Below, piece after piece: positions 3,009-13,913 of a DNA stretch of 20,421 bases. The position numbers and the translations under genes are program-made. Origin of the DNA: a virus; the IMG/VR virus record IMGVR_UViG_3300037278_000312, positions 1 through 20,421 of that record. The stretch is one strand, 5' to 3'. The notes under the pieces are model-generated. The model was not told the origin of the DNA. It was given only the letters and a program-made list of their open reading frames with translations, and searched no databases. Every line of letters starts with the position of its first letter. Within the stretch, counting starts at the first letter, position 1.

Positions 3009-3026
3009 TTTTGTCTATTGACAAAA
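3009..3026. promoter_or_regulatory. 18-bp palindromic operator, copy 1
   Basis: TTTTGTC-TATT-GACAAAA is a perfect inverted repeat with 7-bp arms; one more T/A pair extends it to 3008-3027. The exact reverse complement recurs at 11763-11780 beside the Cro-like regulator gene. The TTGACA -35 hexamer of the rightward promoter (3018-3023) lies inside it, so a protein bound here should block primase/helicase transcription. The binding protein is inferred to be the regulator at 11512-11736. Confidence 0.75.
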
Positions 3027-3060: not shown

Positions 3061-3152
3061 CGTGTGAGGGAAAAATGAAGCATCAACGTAATTTTGTCGC
3101 TGATTCCATAAAGGAATCATCAAAAATGACATCGAGCTGATTCCCTCACATG
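3061..3152 (+). promoter_or_regulatory. structured mRNA leader with competing stems
   Basis: TGTGAGGGAA at 3063-3072, which contains the leader-peptide ribosome site, is perfectly complementary to TTCCCTCACA at 3141-3150, which ends on the A of the primase ATG. A C-G and a G-U pair extend this stem outward. A second hairpin pairs TGATTCC (3101-3107) with GGAATCA (3113-3119) around ATAAA. TGATTCC occurs again at 3138-3144, so GGAATCA could instead pair there, which would exclude the long stem. Such alternative folds suggest an attenuator-like switch; its function is inferred. Confidence 0.5.
3075..3140 (+). CDS. 21-residue leader peptide upstream of primase
   Basis: ATG at 3075 follows GAGGGAAAA, a good ribosome site, and reads 21 sense codons (MKHQRNFVADS...) to TGA at 3138-3140. 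The stop lies nine bases before the primase ATG, which has no Shine-Dalgarno of its own. This arrangement suggests that ribosomes translating the short frame are needed to start primase translation, and that its translation opens the leader stems. The peptide has no recognisable domain. It may matter only by being translated, or it may be a chance frame. Confidence 0.45.
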   Translation: MKHQRNFVADSIKESSKMTSS

Positions 3153-4139
3153 CGCGCCAGCGATATAAAAAACAGTTACACGCTTTCTGATGTGATCAGA
3201 AAATATGTCGATCTTAAAAGAGACGGCAATGAGTTTGTTGGATGCTGCCCATTTCACGGAGAGAGAACCCCATCTTTTCGTGTGCAGGATGCAAGACGAT
3301 CATGGCATTGTTTTGGATGTGGAGAACACGGAGACGTTGTTGACTTTGTTCAAAAGATGGAAAAATGTACTCTTCATGACGCATGTGAAAAAATAACCGG
3401 AACAAATTTTACTGCGACAGGAATTGAGAAACGAGAATTACCACCTATTGTTGACATTTATGCCGACCTAATTAGCATCCCAATCAAAGAGTGCGATATT
3501 CCGCGAGCCAATCAATGGTTCTCAGTTTGGAATCCAAAATCATCACCAGAGCATCCGAATGGCAGATTCACTCGCTACCGGCCAACATTGATTCATCCCT
3601 ACAGAAATTTTGACGGAGAGTTAGTCGGATGCACAGTTCGAATCAATATGAAGGATCGGAAAATTGTTCCAATGCTTCGTATGATAGAAAAAAATAAGCA
3701 ACGGAGCTGGTGCCACTTTCCTTTTGAAAAACCGCGTTCTCCGTATGGCGTTGATCAATTAAAAATAAATGAAACGTCTACAGTTTTAATCGTTGAAGGA
3801 GAAAAATGCGTAGACACAGCGCGCCTGGTCATAGGCTCTCCTTGTATAACTTGGGCTGGCGGGACAAACGCTGTGAAGTTTACAGATTGGTCAGCCCTGA
3901 AAAATAGAAATGTTTTGCTTTGGGCGGACGCCGACTCTCAAGGAAGAGAGGCTATGCTTGAAGTGTTCGATAGCGCGATTTCTGCCGGTGCTTCGAAAAT
4001 AAAATTATTGAATGAGGATATTTCAAAACCTAAGGGATGGGACATAGCAGACGCCGTGGATATCGATAAAATGTCACGCGCTGACATTCTTGCTTGGATG
4101 ACAGCGCAGATGCCCTCCAAATTTTATGGAGGAGAATAA
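3150..4139 (+). CDS. phage DNA primase, CHC2 zinc finger plus Toprim
   Basis: This 329-residue protein should synthesise RNA primers for phage replication. A CHC2-type zinc finger is visible at residues 33-57 (C33-x2-H36 ... C54-x2-C57) in the DnaG-like context CCPFHGERTPSF. A Toprim domain follows, with the metal-binding glutamate in LIVEGEKC (about 214-220) and the acidic pair in WADADSQGRE (D260, D262). It is much shorter than full DnaG (about 580 residues) and lacks a visible helicase-binding C-terminal domain, as is common for phage primases. The start is the first ATG after the leader-peptide stop and lacks a clear ribosome site. Its stop overlaps the helicase start by one base (TAATG), so the two are coupled. 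Confidence 0.93.
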   Translation: MRASDIKNSYTLSDVIRKYVDLKRDGNEFVGCCPFHGERTPSFRVQDARRSWHCFGCGEHGDVVDFVQKMEKCTLHDACEKITGTNFTATGIEKRELPPIVDIYADLISIPIKECDIPRANQWFSVWNPKSSPEHPNGRFTRYRPTLIHPYRNFDGELVGCTVRINMKDRKIVPMLRMIEKNKQRSWCHFPFEKPRSPYGVDQLKINETSTVLIVEGEKCVDTARLVIGSPCITWAGGTNAVKFTDWSALKNRNVLLWADADSQGREAMLEVFDSAISAGASKIKLLNEDISKPKGWDIADAVDIDKMSRADILAWMTAQMPSKFYGGE

Positions 4140-5455
4140 TGGTTAAGCAAACTGGGATCGACGATCAAAAAGACGCCGAGGTTTACGGTCTTTCTGGAAA
4201 CAGGTTTCAGAAGGGCGAAGAGTGGATGCGGTTTTTGATTTGGAAGGATGAAGACACCGTTATAGCGAAGAGCGTAACAAATGCGATCTGTTTTTTAACT
4301 CATCATCATGCTGTGGAAGGAGTGTTTATTTACAATGAATTTTCAGATGAAATTGTCCTCGGTAGATGTCCCCCTTGGAGGAACGATAAGGATAAATTTG
4401 AACCGATGCAGCGTATGCACGATCACGATATCACCCATGCCACAGCATGGCTGGAGCGAGTCGGCGTCACCACGTCGATCAATACCACGCGATCAGCAAT
4501 TATTGCGGCCGCAAAAAATAAAACGATAAATCCTCCTAAGGAATATTTGCAAAAACTTGTGTGGGATAAAATTTCGCGCCTCGATCACTGGCTCATAGAC
4601 ACATGTGGAACTGAAGATACGCCTTACGTCAGAACTGTCGGAGCGAAGTGGATGATAGGAGCCGCCGCCCGTGTTTTTAGGCCGGGATGCAAGATGGACA
4701 ATACGCTGATACTCGAAGGTGATCAGGGCATCGGTAAATCGACCGTGTTCAAGGAGCTGGCCACGTTCAACGATAAAGCGTATTTCACAGACGATCTCGC
4801 ACCACCAGGAACGAAAGACTGCTCGATCCAATTGCAAGGCGTGATCATCGTTGAGCTTCCAGAAATGCAAGCATTGATCCGTACAGACAGAAATGTTTTT
4901 GTACCGTGGTTGAGCCGAACATCAGATCGTTATCGCCCTCCATACGGCATCATGCTGGTGGAGTCGCCGCGCCGCTGCATTTTCGGAGGAACATGGAACC
5001 CTGATAACACAGGATTGTTTGAGGACCCCACGGGCGCGCGCAGATACTGGCCAGTGAGCTGCAAAGAAATCAACCTTGACCTCATCAGAACATGTCGCGA
5101 TCAGCTCTGGGCAGAGGCTATAGAGCGTTATAAGGCCGGAGAAAAATGGTGGCTAGAAGGCGAGGAGGCGATTGCCTTGGCGCGCGAGCAACAGGAGATG
5201 CGTGAGTCCGATGATGTGTGGGGTGAACTGATCAACGAATGCGTACACGGAAAGACAAGGACGACTATCAATGAAATTCTTCATGCCATGCACGTTCCAA
5301 TCGAAAAACGTGACAGGAAATGTGAGCGCAGAATTGGACATCATATGCGTCGTATAGGCTGGTCCAGAAAGAAAATGAGGCCGTCAGCTTACAAGGACCC
5401 CACATGGTATTTCATAAATCCTGACTGTTTAAATCTTAATCCCGAAGAGTTCTAG
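4139..5455 (+). CDS. VirE-family (virulence-associated E) replicative helicase-like ATPase
   Basis: The 438-residue product carries a P-loop GDQGIGKS (194-201) and Walker B VIIVELPEM (235-243). It also has the family hallmark SRTSDRYRPPYG (259-270), then CIFGGTWNPD and the ETGNRRFWPV-like segment DPTGARRYWPV. These match the VirE/DUF5906-like superfamily 3-type ATPases that sit directly behind primases in phages and mobile elements, so a role in unwinding DNA ahead of the fork is well supported by family and context. I start it at 4139, where GGAGGAGAATA precedes ATG and overlaps the primase stop; an in-frame ATG at 4094 lies deep in the primase gene and lacks a ribosome site. The last 27 bp overlap the convergent VRR-NUC gene end to end. 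Confidence 0.9.
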   Translation: MVKQTGIDDQKDAEVYGLSGNRFQKGEEWMRFLIWKDEDTVIAKSVTNAICFLTHHHAVEGVFIYNEFSDEIVLGRCPPWRNDKDKFEPMQRMHDHDITHATAWLERVGVTTSINTTRSAIIAAAKNKTINPPKEYLQKLVWDKISRLDHWLIDTCGTEDTPYVRTVGAKWMIGAAARVFRPGCKMDNTLILEGDQGIGKSTVFKELATFNDKAYFTDDLAPPGTKDCSIQLQGVIIVELPEMQALIRTDRNVFVPWLSRTSDRYRPPYGIMLVESPRRCIFGGTWNPDNTGLFEDPTGARRYWPVSCKEINLDLIRTCRDQLWAEAIERYKAGEKWWLEGEEAIALAREQQEMRESDDVWGELINECVHGKTRTTINEILHAMHVPIEKRDRKCERRIGHHMRRIGWSRKKMRPSAYKDPTWYFINPDCLNLNPEEF

Positions 5456-5818
5456 CGCGCCGATAAGAGACCTGAAGTGACCGGCGATACCTCCATCCTG
5501 TTGTACAACACGAATGAAATTTTTCTGATCTTCGGTTAAACGGCCGGATGTAGATTTGGCTTCGGGCGCGGCGAAGATGGCGATACGCTGACCGACCATA
5601 TCTTGAGTAATGATAACGGATTTATAACCGATGAGGTCAGAGGACCCTTTGCAAAGTCCTGCGTGAAGAGGGCGAGCGTTTGCAAGTAAAATCGAACCGT
5701 CAGGATTTTTTCTAACGAGTTTACCGATCCACCCGACACCCACGTTATTGCGAAACGTTTTGATGCCATGTTTTGCGAGTTCAATTTGCGCCTCGCGCTG
5801 TACGTTCGACTCGCTCAT
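5429..5818 (-). CDS. VRR-NUC-like nuclease
   Basis: This 129-residue protein fits the small stand-alone VRR-NUC nucleases of phages (PD-(D/E)XK fold). An N-terminal E..AQIEL helix is followed by FRNNVGVGW, then the metal-binding GSSDLIG and EAKSTSGRLTEDQKNFI, with GGIAGHFRS near the end. The D of SSDLIG, the E and K of EAK and the Q of DQKNF are the expected active-site residues. Members are thought to cut branched or structured DNA during replication or recombination. It is the last gene of the leftward early operon, starts 38 bp inside the methyltransferase gene with a weak ribosome site, and ends overlapping the convergent helicase gene by 27 bp. Confidence 0.85.
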   Translation of the reverse strand: MSESNVQREAQIELAKHGIKTFRNNVGVGWIGKLVRKNPDGSILLANARPLHAGLCKGSSDLIGYKSVIITQDMVGQRIAIFAAPEAKSTSGRLTEDQKNFIRVVQQDGGIAGHFRSLIGALELFGIKI

Positions 5819-6581
5819 GAGGAATGTCCAAAGATGTCTGTTTCAACTTAACATACGGAATAAACATATCCGCCTCTTTGGTAGCAGCATGAACGCGCTC
5901 ACAGCAGATGTCAAAATACTTCGCGTCTTGCTCGATTAATATACACCTACGGCCAAGCTGAACGGCAGCAACGCCGGTTGTGCCGGAACCTGCGAATGGA
6001 TCAAGTATAATTTGTCCGTGATCCGTAAAATCCAATATCAACTCGCGCATCAGTAGAAGTGGTTTTTCCGTTTTGTGAACGCCGTGGCGCGTCTTAGAAT
6101 TTGTAAGGTGCGTATAGACCCCACGTTTTCCACCAGCAGACCAGCGAGAGTATCCCTTGCCGCACCAAGCCGTCACCATCGATTCGTATCCTATAGCCGG
6201 TCCTTGCCCATTCATTTTAGGCGTAGCATCAGGTTTGACCCAGACCATCGGAGATTTATATTTTAATTCCTCAGATTCGATACTGTCGCGCCAGAAAGAA
6301 ACCTGTTCAGTTTGGCAGAAAGCGATAAACCATCCATCGCAGAGTCTCTTAGCCTCAGCACATACCTTGATCCTGAGACGATCATCAAGTGGGATAAAAT
6401 CCAGATCGTCACGATCTCTTGCGCCACCTTTTTTTTTGCGCCGTGGACGGAATTGTTTATGAGCCTCGGAATCATAAGGAGGGTCGCAGATAAAATGATC
6501 AACCTTCGTTGAAAACGAACTAATCACCTCGATGCAGTCACCGTGATATATATCACATGTGCCTATGGTTGTTCTGTTCAT
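5781..6581 (-). CDS. DNA methyltransferase, DPPY ... FAGSGT (beta-type order)
   Basis: A 266-residue S-adenosylmethionine-dependent DNA methylase. The catalytic motif IV DPPY is at 33-36, HKTEKP at 169-174 and the cofactor-binding DPFAGSGTTG at 194-203. This order (IV before I) is typical of the beta class of amino-methyltransferases, and DPPY favours N6-adenine over N4-cytosine. ATG at 6581 is chosen because AAGGAG lies eight bases upstream and the ATG overlaps the preceding stop as ATGA; longer in-frame starts lie inside the neighbour. No cognate restriction enzyme is recognised, so it is probably an orphan methylase protecting phage DNA from host restriction. The overlapping nuclease gene downstream is noted as a possible partner. 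Confidence 0.9.
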   Translation of the reverse strand: MNRTTIGTCDIYHGDCIEVISSFSTKVDHFICDPPYDSEAHKQFRPRRKKKGGARDRDDLDFIPLDDRLRIKVCAEAKRLCDGWFIAFCQTEQVSFWRDSIESEELKYKSPMVWVKPDATPKMNGQGPAIGYESMVTAWCGKGYSRWSAGGKRGVYTHLTNSKTRHGVHKTEKPLLLMRELILDFTDHGQIILDPFAGSGTTGVAAVQLGRRCILIEQDAKYFDICCERVHAATKEADMFIPYVKLKQTSLDIPHERVERTARGAN

Positions 6582-6814
6582 TTCTTTTTCTCCTTGAATG
6601 GACGGCGAAAAACAAACCATGTGAAAAGCTCTTCCGGTGAACGCCATTGTCTGACCGCCGGTCCTACATATTCCCAACCCTCCGTGTCCATCATGTTTAG
6701 AAACCACTCAATAGCTTCTGCGTGTGGAACGGGGGTTCCACAATTTGGTGGAAGCGTATTTTGGGTGACATGGTATTCCCATTTACGGGTGGTTTGTGGT
6801 TTACTCTCCGTCAT
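6578..6814 (-). CDS. small DUF4177-like protein, 78 aa
   Basis: The pattern KWEYHVTQN, a helix with IEWFLNMMDTEGWEYVGP, then FTWFVFRRP resembles DUF4177-type small proteins (beta strand, helix with GWE, beta strand ending FVFKR). Those are common in phages and have no settled function. ATG at 6814 has AGGT six bases upstream. The gene overlaps its upstream neighbour by 14 bp and the methyltransferase start by 4 bp (ATGA). The assignment rests on motif shape only. Confidence 0.75.
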   Translation of the reverse strand: MTESKPQTTRKWEYHVTQNTLPPNCGTPVPHAEAIEWFLNMMDTEGWEYVGPAVRQWRSPEELFTWFVFRRPFKEKKK

Positions 6815-7070
6815 GATCGAACCTCATTTTTGAGAAATCATCGTCTGGACCTTCCCAAAAAAAGTATGGACTTCCTGCATCGCTTCCACATCTACCTATT
6901 AGGTTGGCAATGTATGCTGGATCAATATTAAAATGTTTTGCTGCTTCGGCGACAGTTCCAAAGTCTGGACTTCCATCTGGTAGTTTCTTTCTGCGCCTCC
7001 AAGACCAGTTCTGGATTTGACCGAAAGTTTCAACGTCATCAATAAAGATTGGCGTGGTTTCAGTTGTCAT
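6801..7070 (-). CDS. hypothetical phage protein, 89 aa, with short helix-turn-helix-like stretch
   Basis: ATG at 7070 follows GGGAGGCAAGAT, a strong ribosome site, and overlaps the upstream stop as ATGA. The product is acidic at both ends. Its central segment (FGTVAEAAKHFNIDPAYIAN) resembles the recognition unit of a small DNA-binding domain, in which an AEAAKHF helix is followed by a turn and a second helix. It is followed by SPYFFWEGPDDD. I do not recognise a family. A DNA-binding or accessory replication role is only a guess from the motif and operon context. Confidence 0.7.
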   Translation of the reverse strand: MTTETTPIFIDDVETFGQIQNWSWRRRKKLPDGSPDFGTVAEAAKHFNIDPAYIANLIGRCGSDAGSPYFFWEGPDDDFSKMRFDHDGE

Positions 7071-7321
7071 ATCTTGCCTCCCATATATTCCTTGTCATGA
7101 ACGATAGCATTCGAAGCTATAGCCTCAACGCCGTACCAGTTCATCATATCCCAAAGAGCATCGCAAACATTCTTGAGCGATTGCTTTTTCACCGGGTCGG
7201 TTTCTTGGTCGTACAAGTGGTCTAGCTCATAATGTGCATGGCGAATGTCGCCTTGATCCAAAACTTTTACCATGACAGTCATCTTTTCGGTATCATTCGT
7301 CGTTTCAGATTCACTGGGCAT
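7067..7321 (-). CDS. hypothetical acidic phage protein, 84 aa
   Basis: I place the start at ATG 7321 (MPSESETTNDTEK), which overlaps the upstream gene by 11 bp; a longer frame to 7450 would be shadowed by that gene. The sequence is mostly helical: MTVMVKVLDQ, then HYELDHLYDQETDPVKKQSLKNV and ALWDMMNWYGVEAIA, shown in parts. It has no cysteine cluster, signal or membrane segment. It ends in an ATGA overlap with the next gene. No function is recognised. Confidence 0.65.
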   Translation of the reverse strand: MPSESETTNDTEKMTVMVKVLDQGDIRHAHYELDHLYDQETDPVKKQSLKNVCDALWDMMNWYGVEAIASNAIVHDKEYMGGKI

Positions 7322-7499
7322 TTTGCACCCGCATAGCATCAAAGTTTTTATATTCTGTATTCGCGCACTCAAAACAAACCACACGGCGCTTGTGACCAAT
7401 AAATGAATGACCGCAGGAGCAGCATCGGCATTCATAATTGCCGTTCTCATGGGAGAAGTCTTTGCCCCAATCCTTCTTGCTAGGAATCGAAATATTCAT
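7311..7499 (-). CDS. small phage zinc-ribbon protein, 62 aa
   Basis: The compact cysteine set C24, C26, C27, C29 with C42 and C45, around HSFIGHKRRVVC, is a treble-clef or zinc-ribbon layout (CxxC ... CxxC), and the GHKRRVVC core recurs in small phage proteins I recall. ATG at 7499 is preferred over 7511 because GGAG sits six bases before it and because it overlaps the upstream stop as ATGA. The role is probably nucleic-acid or protein binding; this is inferred. Confidence 0.75.
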   Translation of the reverse strand: MNISIPSKKDWGKDFSHENGNYECRCCSCGHSFIGHKRRVVCFECANTEYKNFDAMRVQNAQ

Positions 7500-7696
7500 G
7501 AAAAGCTCCATTCAAAGATTGATGCAGGTTTTTGCCAAGTGATGAAAAGCAAAACCCAAAGCAAAAGCATAATCGGTATCATCAAAGGATAAAGCGCCAG
7601 CCGCCATAGCAACAAGATCGGGTTGACAAGTTTACATTCATCCCACTCCCACTTTCTCAGATTAAATCTCGTCGCTTGATGTTTATCCACTGACAT
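7496..7696 (-). CDS. small membrane protein, 66 aa
   Basis: A soluble N terminus (MSVDKHQATRFNLRKWEWD) precedes one or two closely spaced hydrophobic segments, VNPILLLWRLALYPLM and IPIMLLLWVLLFITW. The protein should lie in the inner membrane. ATG at 7696 has GAGGAGG nine bases upstream, better than the in-frame ATG at 7714. It overlaps its upstream neighbour by 14 bp. Superinfection exclusion or early host-membrane modification are typical roles for such early phage proteins, but nothing specific can be said. Confidence 0.7.
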   Translation of the reverse strand: MSVDKHQATRFNLRKWEWDECKLVNPILLLWRLALYPLMIPIMLLLWVLLFITWQKPASIFEWSFS

Positions 7697-7865
7697 GCTG
7701 CCAAGCCTCCTCAAAACCTGCTCGATAAGCCCTCAAAGAAAACGATGTAAATGGGTTCGAGTAGTCTGTGCCATCTTCGTTTAAATCCAACGGAAGATAT
7801 TTGCACTCGGTCTTAACCCATTCCTCAAACTCTACTCTTTGCTGCCAAGTCGTCGTTTGAGTCAT
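7683..7865 (-). CDS. small conserved-type phage protein, 60 aa
   Basis: ATG at 7865 has AGGAG about seven bases upstream and overlaps the preceding stop as ATGA. The acidic, aromatic sequence contains FEEWVKTECKYLPLDLNEDG and ends ALRAYRAGFEEAWQ-like (SLRAYRAGFEEAWQHVSG). This combination of a polar N-terminal helix and a C-terminal AGFEEAWQ helix is common in tiny early phage proteins of unknown function. Confidence 0.7.
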   Translation of the reverse strand: MTQTTTWQQRVEFEEWVKTECKYLPLDLNEDGTDYSNPFTSFSLRAYRAGFEEAWQHVSG

Positions 7866-7975
7866 TTTAAACTCCTGTATTTTGCGAAGGCATACCCACC
7901 GAGGTAGGCGAGCGAAAGAAGCCCGATCAGGATTATCAAAAGAAAAATAGAACTGATGATATCACAGCAAGTCAT
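7862..7975 (-). CDS. 37-residue single-pass membrane micro-protein
   Basis: This short frame fills what would otherwise be a gap in the operon. It begins at ATG 7975 inside an ATGA overlap with the preceding gene and ends at 7862 inside an ATGA overlap with the next. It reads MTCCDIISS, a 20-residue hydrophobic helix (IFLLIILIGLLSLAYLGGYA), then FAKYRSLK. The basic C terminus suggests an N-out, C-in topology. The double coupling argues strongly that it is translated. The function is unknown; small phage membrane proteins often modulate host membrane processes. Confidence 0.7.
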   Translation of the reverse strand: MTCCDIISSIFLLIILIGLLSLAYLGGYAFAKYRSLK

Positions 7976-8205
7976 GGTGCAACTCTATCAAGAGCATCCA
8001 ATTTCATCGCTTCTTCGGCCATAGCCCTCACTTCATCAAAACTTTCCTTTCGGGGAAGTCCTTTGTCGGCTCGACCGCTTCTGAACCCGTGACGGTAGCT
8101 GCGAGAGCGATTATCCGAAGGTTCTGGATTGGAGAGGTCATAGCCATCCACGAAGCCTTCGATCATTTCCGCGTTGGCTTGCGGTGTCGTTTGTGGATCA
8201 CTCAT
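7972..8205 (-). CDS. small protein, 77 aa, Rmf/CrpP-like pattern
   Basis: The segment FVDGYDLSNPEPSDNRSRSY followed by RHGFRSGRADKG resembles the short 'GY.. G ... NP ... W..G...A' layout of ribosome-modulation-factor or CrpP-like small proteins that phages often carry. This is a weak, motif-level resemblance. A second helix, SFDEVRAMAEEAMKLDALD, follows. ATG at 8205 has AAGG about eight bases upstream. ATGA overlaps join it to genes on both sides. Confidence 0.65.
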   Translation of the reverse strand: MSDPQTTPQANAEMIEGFVDGYDLSNPEPSDNRSRSYRHGFRSGRADKGLPRKESFDEVRAMAEEAMKLDALDRVAP

Positions 8206-8366
8206 TTGAAAACCTTCGGTACATAGTTGTCGATTAATTCTACCAACCGTTCAAACGCCGGAAGTGCATGTTCGCATTCCCATACTGGGGATGGTTTTGC
8301 CTTTGCTGCTATCTGCATAGCCTGCCGCACTGCTCTAATGTCACCATCGGTCGTGGTTACTGTCAT
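8202..8366 (-). CDS. hypothetical 54-residue protein
   Basis: ATG at 8366 overlaps the preceding stop (ATGA at 8363-8366) and its own stop overlaps the next ATG (8202-8205). The sequence MTVTTTDGDIRAVRQAMQ ... HALPAFERLVELIDNYVPKV is soluble and helical with one cysteine. No domain is recognised. Its position in the unbroken chain of coupled genes is the main support. Confidence 0.65.
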   Translation of the reverse strand: MTVTTTDGDIRAVRQAMQIAAKAKPSPVWECEHALPAFERLVELIDNYVPKVFK

Positions 8367-8632
8367 GGCAATCTACCGCTCATAGCTTCTTCCATTGTTA
8401 GGTCTTTCGGACCCCAGTGTTCTTCTGTGCGGTTACGCAGAACAAAATAGACTGCGCCAAAATATCTTTTTTCATCGCCCGTTGCTGTGTCGCGCTTTAA
8501 TTTGATAAATTCACAAATTGCGTTTTTCGACAGGTCAATATCTGGCTTCGGCATTCCACAAAATATGCACTTACTTTCGCTTCCAAAGATATGCGCTTTT
8601 TGCGTTTCGCAGTTTATTACGTTCGGTATCAT
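8363..8632 (-). CDS. small phage protein with CxxC knuckle, 89 aa
   Basis: I choose ATG at 8632, which overlaps the preceding stop as ATGA and follows AAAGGTGAAGTC. The longer frame to 8668 would lie wholly within the neighbour. C22-x2-C25 (KCIFCGMPKP), with C8, H13 or C40, could bind zinc. The C-terminal half (KRYFGAVYFVLRNRTEEHWG) is amphipathic. No named family is recognised. Confidence 0.7.
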   Translation of the reverse strand: MIPNVINCETQKAHIFGSESKCIFCGMPKPDIDLSKNAICEFIKLKRDTATGDEKRYFGAVYFVLRNRTEEHWGPKDLTMEEAMSGRLP

Positions 8633-8829
8633 GACTTCACCTTTTGATCGCATCGTGGCGGACACCATTGTTCGGTCGGCTCCTGAAGTCTCGACACAGC
8701 AATATGCAGCCCCATAGCTTCGGCAACGGCTTTCAACTTTGGAAAATGTTGCTCACAAATAAAATGCTCACCATCCGAAGGCCAGATGTAGCGATAGGCT
8801 GCATCGTTGGGGCAGGTGGTTTGAGTCAT
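8629..8829 (-). CDS. small Cys/His-containing phage protein, 66 aa
   Basis: The start ATG at 8829 overlaps the preceding stop as ATGA. Residues C6, C25 and H28 (FICEQH), then C56 and C60, could form a zinc site. The layout 'C-P-N-D-A ... W..DG ... C..H ... L..VAEAMG' is one I recall from small phage proteins of unknown function. The ribosome site is weak, so it probably relies on coupling to the gene before it. Confidence 0.65.
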   Translation of the reverse strand: MTQTTCPNDAAYRYIWPSDGEHFICEQHFPKLKAVAEAMGLHIAVSRLQEPTEQWCPPRCDQKVKS

Positions 8830-9023
8830 TGGATCACGCTGATTGCCGGAAGTCCTTCGTTGCATCTGCTCTCCCATGAATTGATCTGCTTGCAAGTTAA
8901 GTCGTCTGCATACCCGCACCTCGGACAATTGCCATCGGCTGTACTCTCTAGCCGACCGTACCATCCGCAACCGCATGAGACGTAAACGTTTTCCGGGTTC
9001 GTGGTTAGAGTTTTATTTGACAT
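8826..9023 (-). CDS. small zinc-ribbon protein, 65 aa
   Basis: ATG at 9023 follows GGAGCAAAAATAAA and lies two bases after the preceding stop. VSCGCGWYGRL and GNCPRCGYAD present CxC ... CxxC ligands (C17, C19, C33, C36) of a rubredoxin-like or zinc-ribbon fold. It is probably an accessory nucleic-acid-binding protein, inferred from fold and context. It ends in an ATGA overlap with the next gene. Confidence 0.7.
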   Translation of the reverse strand: MSNKTLTTNPENVYVSCGCGWYGRLESTADGNCPRCGYADDLTCKQINSWESRCNEGLPAISVIQ

Positions 9024-9024
9024 T

Positions 9025-9255
9025 TTATTTTTGCTCCAGTTTCCATTCGAGAATGCGTTTGATAACCCACCGTGGTGTAAGAAAAGTTTCTTCAGTTCTG
9101 CGGTAATTTTTCTCAGCATATGTAACATAAATTGGCGTAATTCCCAACATGTTTGCCACATATTTTCTTCCGCGAGAGTTGCGTAATTCGTGCATAATTT
9201 TTGCAGCGTTAACTCGATCCATAAAGGACACATCTGGTCCAAGCCATTTAGACAT
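9025..9255 (-). CDS. small basic protein, 76 aa, possible helix-turn-helix
   Basis: ATG at 9255 overlaps the helicase stop by 8 bp. The segment RVNAAKIMHELRNSRGRKYV followed by ANMLGITPIYVTYAEKNYRR has the helix, turn (GIT), helix spacing of a small DNA-binding domain. A basic C terminus (RWVIKRILEWKLEQK) follows. It could help the helicase or act as a regulator. No family is recognised. Confidence 0.65.
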   Translation of the reverse strand: MSKWLGPDVSFMDRVNAAKIMHELRNSRGRKYVANMLGITPIYVTYAEKNYRRTEETFLTPRWVIKRILEWKLEQK

Positions 9256-10705
9256 CTTGCACACTTTCGTTGTAGATTTTTTCTCTTGCTTTAGCGCGAG
9301 CATAATTTGGTTGTCGTTTTTCTCGCGCCGCCGTCTTCAGCTCTGCCCAGATGAACGGATTTTTATACCCCTGCTCAATTCCTACAGCCTCTAGTTCGTC
9401 CAGTGATCGTGCATCGTTTGCAGCTCGCACGGCATCTTTCTTTTTATTAACCAAGGCAGCTTTGTCAAGCTTGACCAACTCACCGTCCACCTGCTCGACC
9501 TGCCGACTTTGTATCGGATAAACGTAACCACAAAAAGGACAAGATGGAGCTGGGCGATGAACGTAGAGGCACTTCCCACAGTTACGAATTTTAATTTTGA
9601 CTTCACTTTCCATATCCTTTTTCTTTTTCTTTTTTCTTCCTTCAAGCGACCATGTTCTTGGCTCGTCGGGAAGAAAATGGCGACGAACATTACCGGCATG
9701 ATCAAGAATTAAGGCTCGTTCCTTGCCTTCATATTTTCTAAGAACACGACCGACCTGCTGCACATAAAGAGCTAGCGACTGCGTTGGCCTGAGTAGGATC
9801 GCCGTTTCCATTGCCGGTAAGTCAAATCCTTCTCCAAAGATGTCAACAGATGTAAGAATAGTGATCTCGCCAGAACGGAAGGCGTTGACTGCCGCTTTCC
9901 TTTGTGCGCGCGGCGTAGAGCCATCAACGTGAACGGCAGAGATTCCCGAATCTCTAAATTGTTGTGCAACGTGTTCCGAATGCTTGACGGACACACAGAA
10001 CGCCACCGCCCTTTTTCCGGCCGAGTGCTTGATGTACTCTCTGATTGCATCTCCCGTAATAGACGGCGTATCCATAAGGGATTCTGTTTGGTCTGTCGCA
10101 TAGTCACCTGCTCTAATATCGAGGTTGCTCACATCCGGTATGCCCGGTTCAAATACTTCATAATCCGAAAGATATCCATTGTCTATCAACCACCGAACGG
10201 ACGGCCCTTGAACCATCGACGTGTAAATATTTCCGAGTCCCTTACCGTCAAGTCTCTCAGGTGTCGCGGTGAGACCGACAACACGCGCACTTGAAAAATG
10301 ATCGATGACAGCCTTCCAAGTTGGGGAACAAGAATGGGCGCATTCATCGACGACGATGAGATCAGGCATGAACGGAAATTTTTCCAGTCTTCGTCTAAGT
10401 GTATCAATACTCGCGATCTGAACCGGCTGTACCGGGTTGAAAGAATATCCTGCTGCCACACATCCATGCTCGATACCCTCCCGATTAAACGCCTCAATGG
10501 ATTGATCCATGAGTTCCTGCCGGTGGACCGTAAAAAGTGCTGTCTTGCCTTTAGCGACAGCTCCATGAATCATTTTTGCTGCAATGCGTGTCTTACCGGA
10601 GCCTGTTGCAGACACCAAAAGAACAGCGCGGTTAGTTTTTAAAGCATCGCGCGTATCATCGATCATTTTGTCCTGATAGGGACGATCTTCGAATTTATAT
10701 GACAT
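9248..10705 (-). CDS. superfamily 2 DEAD/DEAH-type DNA helicase with C-terminal zinc ribbon
   Basis: The 485-residue helicase shows motif I SATGSGKT (32-39), motif II DECAH (120-124), motif III GLTATP (144-149) and motif VI QQVGRVLRK, in the order of the type I restriction/UvrB-like ResIII group. After a lysine-rich linker (residues 357-364) a CGKC ... CPFC zinc ribbon lies around 375-395. It should translocate on DNA or displace proteins during phage replication or recombination; the exact partner is unknown. The start at 10705 overlaps the exonuclease gene by 11 bp. The linker is encoded by an A-rich tract with a correctly phased -1 slippery heptamer at 9635-9629, which could yield a shorter form lacking the zinc ribbon. 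Confidence 0.92.
   Translation of the reverse strand: MSYKFEDRPYQDKMIDDTRDALKTNRAVLLVSATGSGKTRIAAKMIHGAVAKGKTALFTVHRQELMDQSIEAFNREGIEHGCVAAGYSFNPVQPVQIASIDTLRRRLEKFPFMPDLIVVDECAHSCSPTWKAVIDHFSSARVVGLTATPERLDGKGLGNIYTSMVQGPSVRWLIDNGYLSDYEVFEPGIPDVSNLDIRAGDYATDQTESLMDTPSITGDAIREYIKHSAGKRAVAFCVSVKHSEHVAQQFRDSGISAVHVDGSTPRAQRKAAVNAFRSGEITILTSVDIFGEGFDLPAMETAILLRPTQSLALYVQQVGRVLRKYEGKERALILDHAGNVRRHFLPDEPRTWSLEGRKKKKKKDMESEVKIKIRNCGKCLYVHRPAPSCPFCGYVYPIQSRQVEQVDGELVKLDKAALVNKKKDAVRAANDARSLDELEAVGIEQGYKNPFIWAELKTAAREKRQPNYARAKAREKIYNESVQDV
9629..9635 (-). other. candidate -1 frameshift heptamer A AAA AAG
   Basis: Within the helicase frame the codons AGA AAA AAG (residues 357-359) place the heptamer A AAA AAG in exactly the X XXY YYZ phase used by bacterial dnaX. 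AAGGA lies immediately upstream. A -1 slip adds eight residues (EKEKGYGK) and stops at TGA 9605-9603, giving about 367 residues and removing the zinc ribbon. No clear downstream stem was identified. Confidence 0.35.
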
Positions 10706-11318
10706 TGTTTGTACCCGGCGCTCTTAGGTGTTTAATTCTGAGATAAATTCTCAGCGCCGCTTCAGTGTCAACCAACGCATCGTGAGCACCAACGATTTCT
10801 TCGTTGAAGAAAAATTTAAAAGCTTCAGAAAGTTTTGGGGACTTAGGAACTTCGTGCATTCCGGCCTTGACCATTTTTTCAGTTGGAGCAAGGTTGATAA
10901 TGTGAGCACTATTTTTTTGTGTACAAAAATGTTCCCTGCCATCGAACAGATCAGATTGATGTGCAATGCCAAGACGAAGTTTGGCAAGTTTAATTATATT
11001 CACGTCGAAATCAAGATTGTGACCAACAATAACATCGGCGCGCGCTATAAGCGAATAAAGCATAGTAACGGCCGTGATTGGCTTCAGGCCATATTCACGC
11101 GCACGTTCCTGCGTGATTCCATGCGCCTCCATTGCTCCAGGCTCAATTGGAATCGGTGGGTTCACCAGAAAATTCATTGTGGAATGTTTCACGCCGTCCT
11201 CTCCGGCGAGAATAGCGGCAATCTGAACCGGCCAAGGCTGGAGGATATTATCTGGAGAAATATCCATTTTGATAAAGCCGGTTGTTTCGGTATCAAGGGC
11301 GAGGATTTTTTTTGTCAT
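10695..11318 (-). CDS. DnaQ-like 3'-5' exonuclease (DEDDh)
   Basis: A 207-residue stand-alone exonuclease of the DNA polymerase III epsilon fold. ExoI is LALDTETTG with D9 and E11, ExoII is VGHNLDFDV (about 98-106), and ExoIII is AHDALVDTEAA with the catalytic H and D five residues apart (DEDDh subtype). GAMEAHGIT is also typical. It probably proofreads for the host polymerase or trims DNA ends; no phage polymerase is visible here. It overlaps the zinc-ribbon gene upstream as ATGA and the helicase downstream by 11 bp. Confidence 0.9.
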   Translation of the reverse strand: MTKKILALDTETTGFIKMDISPDNILQPWPVQIAAILAGEDGVKHSTMNFLVNPPIPIEPGAMEAHGITQERAREYGLKPITAVTMLYSLIARADVIVGHNLDFDVNIIKLAKLRLGIAHQSDLFDGREHFCTQKNSAHIINLAPTEKMVKAGMHEVPKSPKLSEAFKFFFNEEIVGAHDALVDTEAALRIYLRIKHLRAPGTNNVI

Positions 11319-11515
11319 TTTGAATCAATGGTAATGCCGTTAACTTCGATTAAACACCCACAATTATAGCATTTGACGAAACGTGCATCATCTGCCGGAT
11401 CAAATGATCGACCGTCATTTTGTTCATTCAAATTTACTTCAATACCTTGATCACAATCTGGACATGACATCTCAAAAGCAATGGCGGTTGGCGTTACCTT
11501 TTTATATCCAGTCAT
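11315..11515 (-). CDS. small zinc-ribbon protein, 66 aa
   Basis: MSCPDCDQGIEVNL and VKCYNCGCLIEVNG provide two CxxC knuckles about 30 residues apart, a classic zinc-ribbon spacing. It lies between the regulator and the exonuclease with ATGA overlaps on both sides (11512-11515 and 11315-11318). It may bind DNA or bridge replication proteins. The function is inferred only from the fold. Confidence 0.75.
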   Translation of the reverse strand: MTGYKKVTPTAIAFEMSCPDCDQGIEVNLNEQNDGRSFDPADDARFVKCYNCGCLIEVNGITIDSK

Positions 11516-11736
11516 TTTGCTTTCCTCTTTGGTTGATCAGTTACCCAGTCTTCTATCTGAATAGCCGCCTCCGTATGTTTCCATATCAGGTAAACAGTTT
11601 CGATATCAGGAACGTTTGTACCATCGAGAATCCTTGTGATCGTCGATGGTGATTTTTTAATTATTGAGGCAAAGCGAGACGGTCTCATGCGTCTCTCTTG
11701 AAGCCATTGCTGAAGTTTTGTTACGCCTATTTTCAT
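11512..11736 (-). CDS. Cro/XRE-like transcriptional regulator, 74 aa
   Basis: The product is a single helix-turn-helix domain: KLQQWLQERRMRPSRFASII, then KKSPSTITRILDGTNVPDIE, with the recognition helix at STITRIL. It lacks a peptidase or dimerisation domain, like Cro or YdaS-type regulators. ATG at 11736 is chosen for its AAGGGGGAG ribosome site; an upstream TTG at 11778 lies inside the operator and would be poorly placed. It is first in the 19-gene leftward early operon and sits next to operator copy 2, so autoregulation and control of copy 1 are likely. Whether it represses or antagonises another repressor is not shown. Confidence 0.85.
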   Translation of the reverse strand: MKIGVTKLQQWLQERRMRPSRFASIIKKSPSTITRILDGTNVPDIETVYLIWKHTEAAIQIEDWVTDQPKRKAK

Positions 11737-11762
11737 GCCCCGAATCTCCCCCTTATTTGTTA

Positions 11763-11780
11763 TTTTGTCAATAGACAAAA
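11763..11780. promoter_or_regulatory. 18-bp palindromic operator, copy 2 (inverted)
   Basis: TTTTGTC-AATA-GACAAAA is the exact reverse complement of the site at 3009-3026, so the asymmetric centre and the TTGACA it contains point leftward, toward the regulator gene (minus strand 11771-11766). A similar half-site TTGACAA follows at 11786-11792. It lies 27 bp upstream of the regulator ATG, between divergent operons. No convincing leftward -10 could be placed. Confidence 0.75.
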
Positions 11781-11785
11781 ATAGC

Positions 11786-11813
11786 TTGACAATATGGGTG
11801 ATAAAGCGAGAAT
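11786..11813 (+). promoter_or_regulatory. candidate rightward promoter for recombination operon
   Basis: TTGACA at 11786-11791 is followed after 16 bp by GAGAAT at 11808-11813, predicting a transcript start near 11820. This places the in-frame ATG at 11794 upstream of the start of transcription and supports ATG 11842 for the exonuclease. Confidence 0.4.
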
Positions 11814-11841: not shown

Positions 11842-12873
11842 ATGCCCAAAAAACCACGTATCTCACTCCGTCCTCCAGCAAAAATGCCGACTGTTACAAA
11901 GGCAGAGGTGAAGATCGAAAAAACAAAAAAAATGACTCCTGCGGTAGCGTCTTCGCTACCGCAGTCCTCTGTTATTTCATTCCCCAAAGTTAAAGCCAAT
12001 GGATTTATAGACGGTATGCCTGATGACATTTACCACGGAGATTGCTGTGTTTCTCCGTCAATGAGCAGTTCGATGGCGAAACTTCTGATTGAAGAATGCC
12101 CAAAAAAGATGTGGTCGGATTCTTACCTCGATCCAAACCGTGAGAAAAAGGAAAACAAGAATTTTGATCTCGGACATGCGCTACATAAAATCTTCCTAGA
12201 GCCGGAAAAATTTGCTGACAGCATTCAAGAAATTGAATTTGATACCTATCAGAAAGACGAAGCGAAGCGCCAAAGATATGTCGCGCGTGAGCGCGGCAAA
12301 GTTCCTTTGCTGACGAAAGATTTACGGACAATCATTCGGATGCGCGAAGCACTGATGAGCGATCCCATAGCTCGAAAATCATTCACTAAAGGAGTTGCAG
12401 AGCGCAGCTATTTTGTGAAGGACAAAGAGACCGGCGTATGGCTGAAGGCGCGGCCGGACTGGGAAATGTTCACACCACGCATCCTGTGCGATTACAAAAC
12501 CACCGAGTCCGCAAACCCGGTCGATTTTTCAAATTCGGTGTATAACTTTGGTTATTACATTCAGCAGCCGTGGTATCAACACATCATTAAAGAGATCACT
12601 GGCGAGCAGATTGATGAGTGGTATTTCATTGCCCAGGAAAAAGAGTATCCATATCTGGTGTCGATCATTGAGATCAAGCCTGAGGCCATAGAATACGGAC
12701 AAAAAATAATGCGTAAGGCGATCAGAAAATTTGCTGACTGCCTGGATAAAGGAATCTGGCACGGTTATCGTGATCCATCGCGGCCGGATCAGGACGGCGT
12801 GATCACGGTGGACCTGCCAACACGGGCATATTTTCAACTTGCTGAACGGGAAGAGCGCAGAGAGTTCAACTGA
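11842..12873 (+). CDS. RecE-like PD-(D/E)XK exonuclease (DUF3799-type)
   Basis: A 343-residue phage recombination nuclease expected to resect double-stranded DNA and leave single strands for annealing. The RecB-family signature is visible: GHALH (H112 region), GVAERSYF (E188), RPDWE (D206), CDYKTT (D217-x-K219) and GYYIQQPWY (Q241/Y245). The first 50 residues are basic and low-complexity (MPKKPRISLRPPAK...), a probable flexible arm. I prefer ATG 11842, with GGA seven bases upstream, because the predicted promoter overlaps the alternative start at 11794. The stop overlaps the following ATPase start as TGATG. A perfect 11-bp hairpin is embedded in the arm-coding part. Confidence 0.88.
   Translation: MPKKPRISLRPPAKMPTVTKAEVKIEKTKKMTPAVASSLPQSSVISFPKVKANGFIDGMPDDIYHGDCCVSPSMSSSMAKLLIEECPKKMWSDSYLDPNREKKENKNFDLGHALHKIFLEPEKFADSIQEIEFDTYQKDEAKRQRYVARERGKVPLLTKDLRTIIRMREALMSDPIARKSFTKGVAERSYFVKDKETGVWLKARPDWEMFTPRILCDYKTTESANPVDFSNSVYNFGYYIQQPWYQHIIKEITGEQIDEWYFIAQEKEYPYLVSIIEIKPEAIEYGQKIMRKAIRKFADCLDKGIWHGYRDPSRPDQDGVITVDLPTRAYFQLAEREERREFN
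11939..11964 (+). repeat. perfect 11-bp stem-loop within exonuclease gene
   Basis: CTGCGGTAGCG (11939-11949) and CGCTACCGCAG (11954-11964) flank a TCTT loop. The stem is unusually GC-rich and perfect for coding DNA and lies in the low-complexity arm, about 100 bases after the start codon. No T-run follows, so it is not a simple terminator. A role in mRNA stability, pausing or protein binding is speculative. Confidence 0.6.
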
Positions 12874-13913
12874 TGCCTACTGTTAACTTCGCACCAGCTC
12901 AAGTAAGACAGCGCCGAGTCCTTCTGTGCATGATCGGAGAGTCCAGCTCCGGGAAAACTTTCAGCGCGTTGCTGATCGCCTGGGGCCTTGCGCGCGGCCT
13001 GAAGAAAGATAGCAAGCCATTCCTGATGGACACAGAGAACGGCCGTGGCGAGGATTATGCCGATGATGACCAGGTGGGAGGATATATCTATGGTGAGCTT
13101 ACGCCGCCCTTCACGCCAGAGCGTTTCATAGAGGGCATACAGGACGCAGAACAGGCCAAGTCTGAAGTGATGATCACGGATACGTTCAGCCATGAATGGG
13201 AGGGTCTAGGCGGAATTATCGATATTGCTGAATCGGCAAAAACAAATTCAGGTGGTGATCTCAGCGGATTGGTAAAATGGGCGAAGCCGAAGGGTCGCCA
13301 CAAAAAACTAATGCACTTTCTAAGCCGGAGTAAGATGCACCATATTCTCGTTCTGCGCGCCAAGGATGATGTAGAGCAGATTGAGCAGTTTGATGAGCAG
13401 ACGAAGAAAAATAAAAAAGTCATCGTCAATAAAGGAAAGAAATCCGTTCAGGAAAAGAGATTCAAATTTGAGATGACCGTTCAGCTCATCATGGAGGACG
13501 GCGATGATCGTGAGGGGTATTATCGAGTCAGTAAGTGCCCAAAAAACCTTCGGCACATTTTTAAAACTGGCGACCGAATCACGATGAGGACGGGTGAGCT
13601 TCTGGCTGACTGGGTTAATAAGAGGGAACCCATAAACTACGATTTGGAGAAACTGAGACTAGCCGGTGATGAGGCAGCAGGAAAGGGCAAGGACGTGTTT
13701 GTAAAATGGTGGAACAGTGATGCCATCAAACCGAAACGCGCGAGCCTAAAGCCCTTCCTTGACAACTTTAACAGCATCGCTAAGACGGCCGACGATGCTG
13801 CGGCACAAGCCAAGGCTGAGAATGATAATTCGGTCAAGACCGAACAACAGGCGGCGCGGAACAAGACTGATCCTTTCGCCGACCCGGAAAATCCGGTAAT
13901 CGCTGTAGAGTGA
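12873..13913 (+). CDS. Sak4-like RecA-fold ATPase (phage single-strand annealing / recombination)
   Basis: This 346-residue protein has a P-loop GESSSGKT (22-29), a Walker B strand VMITD (99-103) in VMITDTFSHEW, and further RecA-core-like segments. It resembles the AAA_24/Sak4 group of phage ATPases that pair with an exonuclease and a single-strand-binding protein. Its start overlaps the RecE-like gene by one base, so the two probably act together in repair and recombination of phage ends. The C-terminal 60 residues are polar, Ala/Lys/Glu-rich and acidic at the end, likely disordered and possibly a partner-binding tail. It ends two bases before a convergent small gene. Confidence 0.85.
   Translation: MPTVNFAPAQVRQRRVLLCMIGESSSGKTFSALLIAWGLARGLKKDSKPFLMDTENGRGEDYADDDQVGGYIYGELTPPFTPERFIEGIQDAEQAKSEVMITDTFSHEWEGLGGIIDIAESAKTNSGGDLSGLVKWAKPKGRHKKLMHFLSRSKMHHILVLRAKDDVEQIEQFDEQTKKNKKVIVNKGKKSVQEKRFKFEMTVQLIMEDGDDREGYYRVSKCPKNLRHIFKTGDRITMRTGELLADWVNKREPINYDLEKLRLAGDEAAGKGKDVFVKWWNSDAIKPKRASLKPFLDNFNSIAKTADDAAAQAKAENDNSVKTEQQAARNKTDPFADPENPVIAVE

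Follow-up and report, generated by a model that had tools for sequence, protein, structure and literature searches.

The question raised by this locus is why a phage should carry the same palindromic 18-mer at two distant places, and which protein would read it. The window, that is, the whole 20,421-nucleotide stretch of IMG/VR record IMGVR_UViG_3300037278_000312 analyzed here, contains TTTTGTCTATTGACAAAA at 3009-3026 and its exact reverse complement TTTTGTCAATAGACAAAA at 11763-11780. These positions confirm those of a first-pass annotation, which had put the copies about 8.7 kb apart (8754 bp from start to start). We conclude that the two 18-mers are very probably single-site operators of one phage-encoded, dimeric Cro-like helix-turn-helix (HTH) repressor, the 74-residue protein whose gene adjoins the second copy.

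The pattern TTTTGTCN4GACAAAA has two exact copies only in the window (operators 1 and 2; Table 1). When up to three mismatches were allowed in the window and in the whole record, all other sites carried three mismatches, and none with 0 to 2 arm mismatches was present elsewhere. Many copies scattered through coding DNA had been named beforehand as an observation that would speak against an operator; the whole-record scan found two sites only. Markov models of order 1 to 3 predict between 3.1×10−4 and 5.5×10−4 exact copies in the window, and the Poisson probability of two copies is around 1.5×10−7 for a pattern that was picked post hoc. This is the one family of perfect palindromes with 7-bp arms that is repeated in the window. 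Among 150 simulated genome pairs, a repeated palindrome family arose in one window-like genome only, a family common to both members of a pair was found in 0/150, and five or more copies were never reached.

The strongest further evidence for the motif came from a related record. G001 (IMGVR_UViG_3300029908_000083) and G002 (IMGVR_UViG_3300029914_000199) are the same phage as the window to 99.99%, while G003 (IMGVR_UViG_3300029957_000022) is a diverged relative, with a DNA identity of around 65-74% where alignable. The pattern had been set beforehand from the window, so that the search in G003 was out-of-sample. It revealed three sites without arm mismatch, at 4045, 32779 and 33876, against 2.3×10−4 to 2.7×10−4 exact copies expected (P around 3×10−12). 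The centres of these sites are AATC, GAAA and TATC, respectively. Over the five sites in the two phages, all 14 arm bases are invariant and the 4-bp centres differ; this indicates that selection acts on the dyad, as expected for a dimeric DNA-binding protein. The G003 site at 4045 is the ortholog of operator 2, both being located between a minus-strand HTH gene and a plus-strand exonuclease VIII-like gene. The site at 32779 overlaps a putative TTGTCT-16-TATAAT promoter of a unit that includes a minor-tail-type gene, followed by the terminase genes, and the site at 33876 stands at the head of a series of small early genes oriented towards VapE. A two-mismatch palindrome, TTATTGTCGCGCGACAATAA, was also seen at G003 31785 (L026:11785-11802), within the gene that precedes that of the large terminase subunit; it may be a weak internal site. 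No full operator was found at the late or early-region promoters of G001, the late region of which contains scattered TTTTGTC half-sites only, and the regulon therefore differs between the two phages. A near-identity search of GenBank phages gave no match, and searches of viral and genome collections with the primase, exonuclease, regulator, AAA and helicase proteins returned only G001, G002 and G003 together with distant proteins.

At operator 2, the palindrome overlaps the putative promoter of the regulator gene itself (promoters are defined here by consensus matches). The same overlap exists in G003, where the counterpart is TTGACA-17-GATATT, with TTGACA within the palindrome and the ATG 6 nt after the -10 box. 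The promoter scan reported the G003 promoter and missed that of the window because GAGATT, with 3 of 6 positions identical to TATAAT, falls below the threshold. In the opposite direction, the putative promoter of the exonuclease operon has a G003 counterpart, TTGACG-16-GATAAT; the operator centre lies near -49 to -51 relative to the start deduced from the -10 box in the window and in G003. The -35 boxes of the two promoters flanking operator 2 are 14 bp apart, on opposite strands. Operator 1 contains a -35-like TTGACA at 3018-3023, which faces the primase and VapE genes on the plus strand. The scan found no clear -10 box after this -35, and likewise at G003 33876. Each promoter is served by a single operator, with no other copy of 0-2 mismatches nearby. 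The start codon follows the -10 box by 6-7 nt at four putative promoters, and leaderless messages are predicted from this spacing.

The gene content around the sites agrees in part with the first-pass annotation, which had placed both copies at the head of early transcription units. The units downstream of the two sites are as it described; a third, divergent unit had been overlooked, which encodes the exonuclease and an AAA ATPase and has its inferred start about 50 bp downstream of operator 2. The minus-strand unit runs from 11736 to 5429 and comprises the regulator, an RNase T exonuclease, a DEAD/ResIII helicase, small ORFs, a DNA methyltransferase and a VRR-NUC protein. Since the VapE gene ends at 5455 on the plus strand and the VRR-NUC gene at 5429 on the minus strand, the primase/VapE and regulator-led units meet tail-to-tail at about 5.44 kb, and the two replication operons are indeed convergent. 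The proposed scope, replication units under one regulator, stands for these genes and has to be widened, because one of the G003 operators lies over the promoter of the late terminase unit. The region 3-2853 of the window, which immediately precedes operator 1, carries an extended tail-spike-like ORF together with an ORF of 168 residues on the minus strand. Neither had a Pfam match in the parts searched or a counterpart in G003 or G001; the region is possibly a swapped-in module.

Table 1. Coordinates of the operators, putative promoters, genes and non-coding stretches (window numbering unless another record is named).
Feature	Location	Strand	Remark
Operator 1	3009..3026	+	TTTTGTC arm, TATT centre, GACAAAA arm; ahead of primase/VapE unit
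DnaG-type primase, CHC2 zinc finger	3150..4139	+	First large gene of operator 1 unit
VapE-type helicase/primase domain protein	4094..5455	+	Operator 1 unit
Rest of regulator-led unit	5429..11515	-	Ends tail-to-tail with VapE gene
Cro-like HTH regulator, 74 residues (MKIGVTKLQQWLQ...)	11512..11736	-	Candidate binder of both operators
Putative regulator promoter	11743..11771	-	TTGACA (11771-11766), 17 nt, GAGATT (11748-11743), ATG 6 nt on
Operator 2	11763..11780	-	Same 18-mer; between regulator gene and exonuclease gene
Putative exonuclease-operon promoter	11786..11813	+	TTGACA-16-GAGAAT, operator centre at about -49
Exonuclease VIII-like (DUF3799, PHROG 412)	11842..12873	+	First gene of divergent unit
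AAA_24 ATPase (PHROG 1366)	12873..13913	+	Exonuclease-led divergent unit
-10/start-codon pairs	window 11736-11748; L025 4018-4030, 4092-4104; L026 12759-12772		
Late/early non-coding stretch	G001 L023:2650-3440; G003 32797-33875 (L026:12797-13875)		

A non-coding stretch of 0.8-1.1 kb separates the late and early units in both phages and is conserved in kind. Its GTTGACC repeats are clustered (4 and 7 copies) and are accompanied by two TGCCTA...TAGGCA palindromes, and in G003 an operator is found at both of its edges. The stretch is a candidate for a replication origin or a second control region. In G001, an ORF of 97 residues, transposase-like when judged by eye (L023:3442-3735), lies directly upstream of the late operon, at the place where G003 has its third operator. 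The left end of G001 (L023:2-259) bears a fragment of an IS66-type transposase, its plasmid matches being annotated as IS66.

The Cro-like gene that had been noted beside operator 2 proved to be a conserved HTH gene adjoining position 11763. The 74-residue window protein and its 75-residue ortholog in G003 are 49% identical. They match Pfam HTH_3 (PF01381) with 18.5 and 17.9 bits, below the curated cut-off of 23, and their matches to PHROG transcription-regulator profiles are weak but consistent. The regulator is the one HTH_3 match in each record. Searches of solved structures with the regulator sequence returned nothing significant, and among GenBank phages the window protein had no match while the ortholog had one weak match, in phage ZRG1. 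An AlphaFold run with two sequences produced a poor model of the window protein (pLDDT 55), whereas the run with three sequences for the G003 ortholog reached a mean pLDDT of 85. Compared with solved folds by VIA-align, the ortholog model gave Z values of 9.7 with HigA, 9.2 with P22 c2 and 8.1 with the 434 repressor; with HigA (6chv), 74 residues were aligned with an rmsd of 2.6. The matched entries include 2cro, 3jxb and 3zhm, from Cro/CI-type phage repressors such as 434 Cro, and many of the matched proteins were solved with operator DNA. Foldseek gave no match to the ortholog model at E 0.001 or better, so that the fold assignment relies on the agreement of many HTH entries at Z 8-10. The modeled ortholog thus appears to adopt a lambda-repressor-like helical HTH fold of the Cro/CI/HigA type. 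The proposal that both sites belong to one regulator is strengthened by the arms invariant at five sites, the promoter positions, the location of the -35 box within the palindrome and the adjacent HTH gene, and the action of the protein on them can be outlined as follows.

Bound as a dimer, the regulator would contact both TTTTGTC half-sites from the same side of the helix. Occupancy of operator 2 would cover the -35 box of the regulator's own promoter and so repress the regulator together with its helicase/methyltransferase unit. An autorepressor that hides its own -35 box is a common phage design. At operator 1, the bound protein would cover the -35-like TTGACA of the primase/VapE unit. Given the distance of 14 bp between the -35 boxes at operator 2, the polymerase probably holds one of the two promoters at a time; hence the bound repressor could either give the exonuclease promoter an advantage or shut off the two together. 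The TATT centre, identical at both window sites, is probably imposed by the need for a -35 TTGACA and not by the protein, since the centres of the late-unit and early-unit sites of G003 lack TTGACA.

The alternative that retains most weight, although we regard it as improbable, is that the operators are bound by a host transcription factor and that the phage borrows host control. Dyads of the TTGTCN4GACAA kind resemble the sites of several families of host regulators. The distribution of the motif in IMG/VR bears on this point. Ten other contigs contain the exact 18-mer, mostly within one coding family, and these occurrences are read as chance. The arms were found in other contigs at no fewer than 80 places; among the matches listed, 60 of 80 fall within ORFs of 100 aa or longer, each contig bears one site, and no regulator homolog is near any of them. 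A few of these sites adjoin promoters in unrelated phage contigs (L004, L050/L072/L081 and others), once in each and with no regulator homolog nearby, so that such a dyad may arise by convergence and a host factor is conceivable. Against a host factor, the orthologous site adjoins the conserved HTH gene and overlaps its promoter, the usual layout of autoregulation, and the other occurrences of the arms among the matches listed are mostly in coding sequence.

Two types of promoter site in these unrelated contigs are described here for themselves. Seven contigs (L050, L072, L075, L081, L112, L115 and L117) carry at a putative promoter the fully symmetric sequence TTTTGTCAATTGACAAAA, with the same two neighbour genes in the contigs checked and no regulator homolog nearby. 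In an unrelated 91.6-kb virus contig, the exact 18-mer at L004:10291-10308 provides the -35 box of a TTGACA-16-TATGCT promoter.

A role of the palindromes in RNA, as terminator or leader hairpins, or in DNA, as sites of recombination or as origins, is highly unlikely. A stem of 7-8 bp could fold in RNA with -5.6 to -7.1 kcal/mol, and the two window copies are mutually inverted. However, the sites contain or overlap -35 boxes and would therefore lie upstream of the transcripts, which argues against a role in RNA, and the terminator scan reported none at the sites. The orientation of a palindrome is nearly meaningless, the incomplete records gave no match to the resolvase or phage-integrase families, and the arms are conserved at promoters that are not homologous.

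The first-pass annotation had also suggested that one regulator might couple the operons by looping over the 8.7 kb, and here the evidence led us to abandon the idea, to which we give hardly any credence. Two identical sites on a single molecule, both with a high expected affinity, would suit a loop, but each promoter has one site, the 74-residue protein consists essentially of one HTH domain and has no oligomerization domain, and the sites of the relative are located at other genes and spaced by 1.1 kb and by around 7 kb or more around a circle. Lastly, chance, by which AT-rich promoter sequence around TTGACA would have become palindromic twice, has a negligible claim: the -35 consensus coincides in part with the right half of the palindrome, so that half-sites are common at promoters, and the same palindrome is present at promoters of a few unrelated phages, but fewer than 0.001 copies are expected per genome, three more exact copies occur in the independent genome G003, and no simulated pair shared such a family.

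The best reading is therefore a Cro-like repressor that acts alone, regulates its own gene and controls a small regulon through one operator per promoter. As for 434 Cro, P22 c2 and the N-terminal domain of TP901-1 CI, the protein is a small HTH protein encoded in a divergent gene layout, and as for Cro/CI-type repressors its predicted operator is a dyad of about 18 bp over the -35 box of its own promoter. Several features depart from the Cro/CI systems: the operators are single and not clustered as OR1-OR3-type sites, no opposing CI or Cro partner was found in these incomplete records, the relative G003 has an operator at its late terminase promoter, and the regulator sequence is too diverged to reach the HTH_3 cut-off. 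The hallmarks of a lambda-type bistable switch are likewise absent from the incomplete records, which contain one HTH_3 match each, unclustered operators and no Peptidase_S24 (CI-type) domain. A ParA-type domain was not detected in them, and the tyrosine recombinase (integrase) or serine recombinase (resolvase) of an integrating temperate phage (PF00589, PF00239) gave no match in the three incomplete records. HigA-type antitoxins, autorepressing Xre proteins that bind a dyad operator at their own promoter, provide the closest folds; unlike for HigA, no toxin gene was recognized as a neighbour, and the neighbours are replication and recombination genes. In Pseudomonas phage ZRG1 (OQ504961), an HTH regulator is also divergent from AAA/nuclease genes, followed by a DEAD helicase. 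The ZRG1 protein shares 39% identity with the regulator over part of its length and has a different recognition helix, and the whole ZRG1 genome contains no TTTTGTCN4GACAAAA with up to 3 mismatches. The mycobacteriophage stoperators, in the cited accounts, offer a precedent for a single repressor that binds several sites distributed over a phage genome (PMC9283540, PMC6550527). They are described as asymmetric and numerous and also stop elongation (PMC9283540), whereas the sites reported here are few (two in the window, three in G003), palindromic and located at promoters. The operator sequence itself was not found in the literature searched.

A broader proposal, which we put forward tentatively and consider doubtful, is that a single Cro-like repressor of 74-75 residues would run the developmental programme of this lineage. 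Single identical operators would be placed at the promoters of its own gene with the helicase, of the primase, of the exonuclease and, in one member, of the late terminase genes; a CI partner, an integrase and a distinct late activator would be lacking, and the operators would have moved between promoters since the phages split. Control of several gene blocks by one regulator is well documented and ordinary, and general principles are left unchanged. What is gained is that a motif seen by eye becomes an operator backed by comparative genomics, with a candidate binder and promoters, in a group of uncultured phages where regulation is usually unknown, and that the set of five sites may illustrate how a small phage regulon gains and loses operators.
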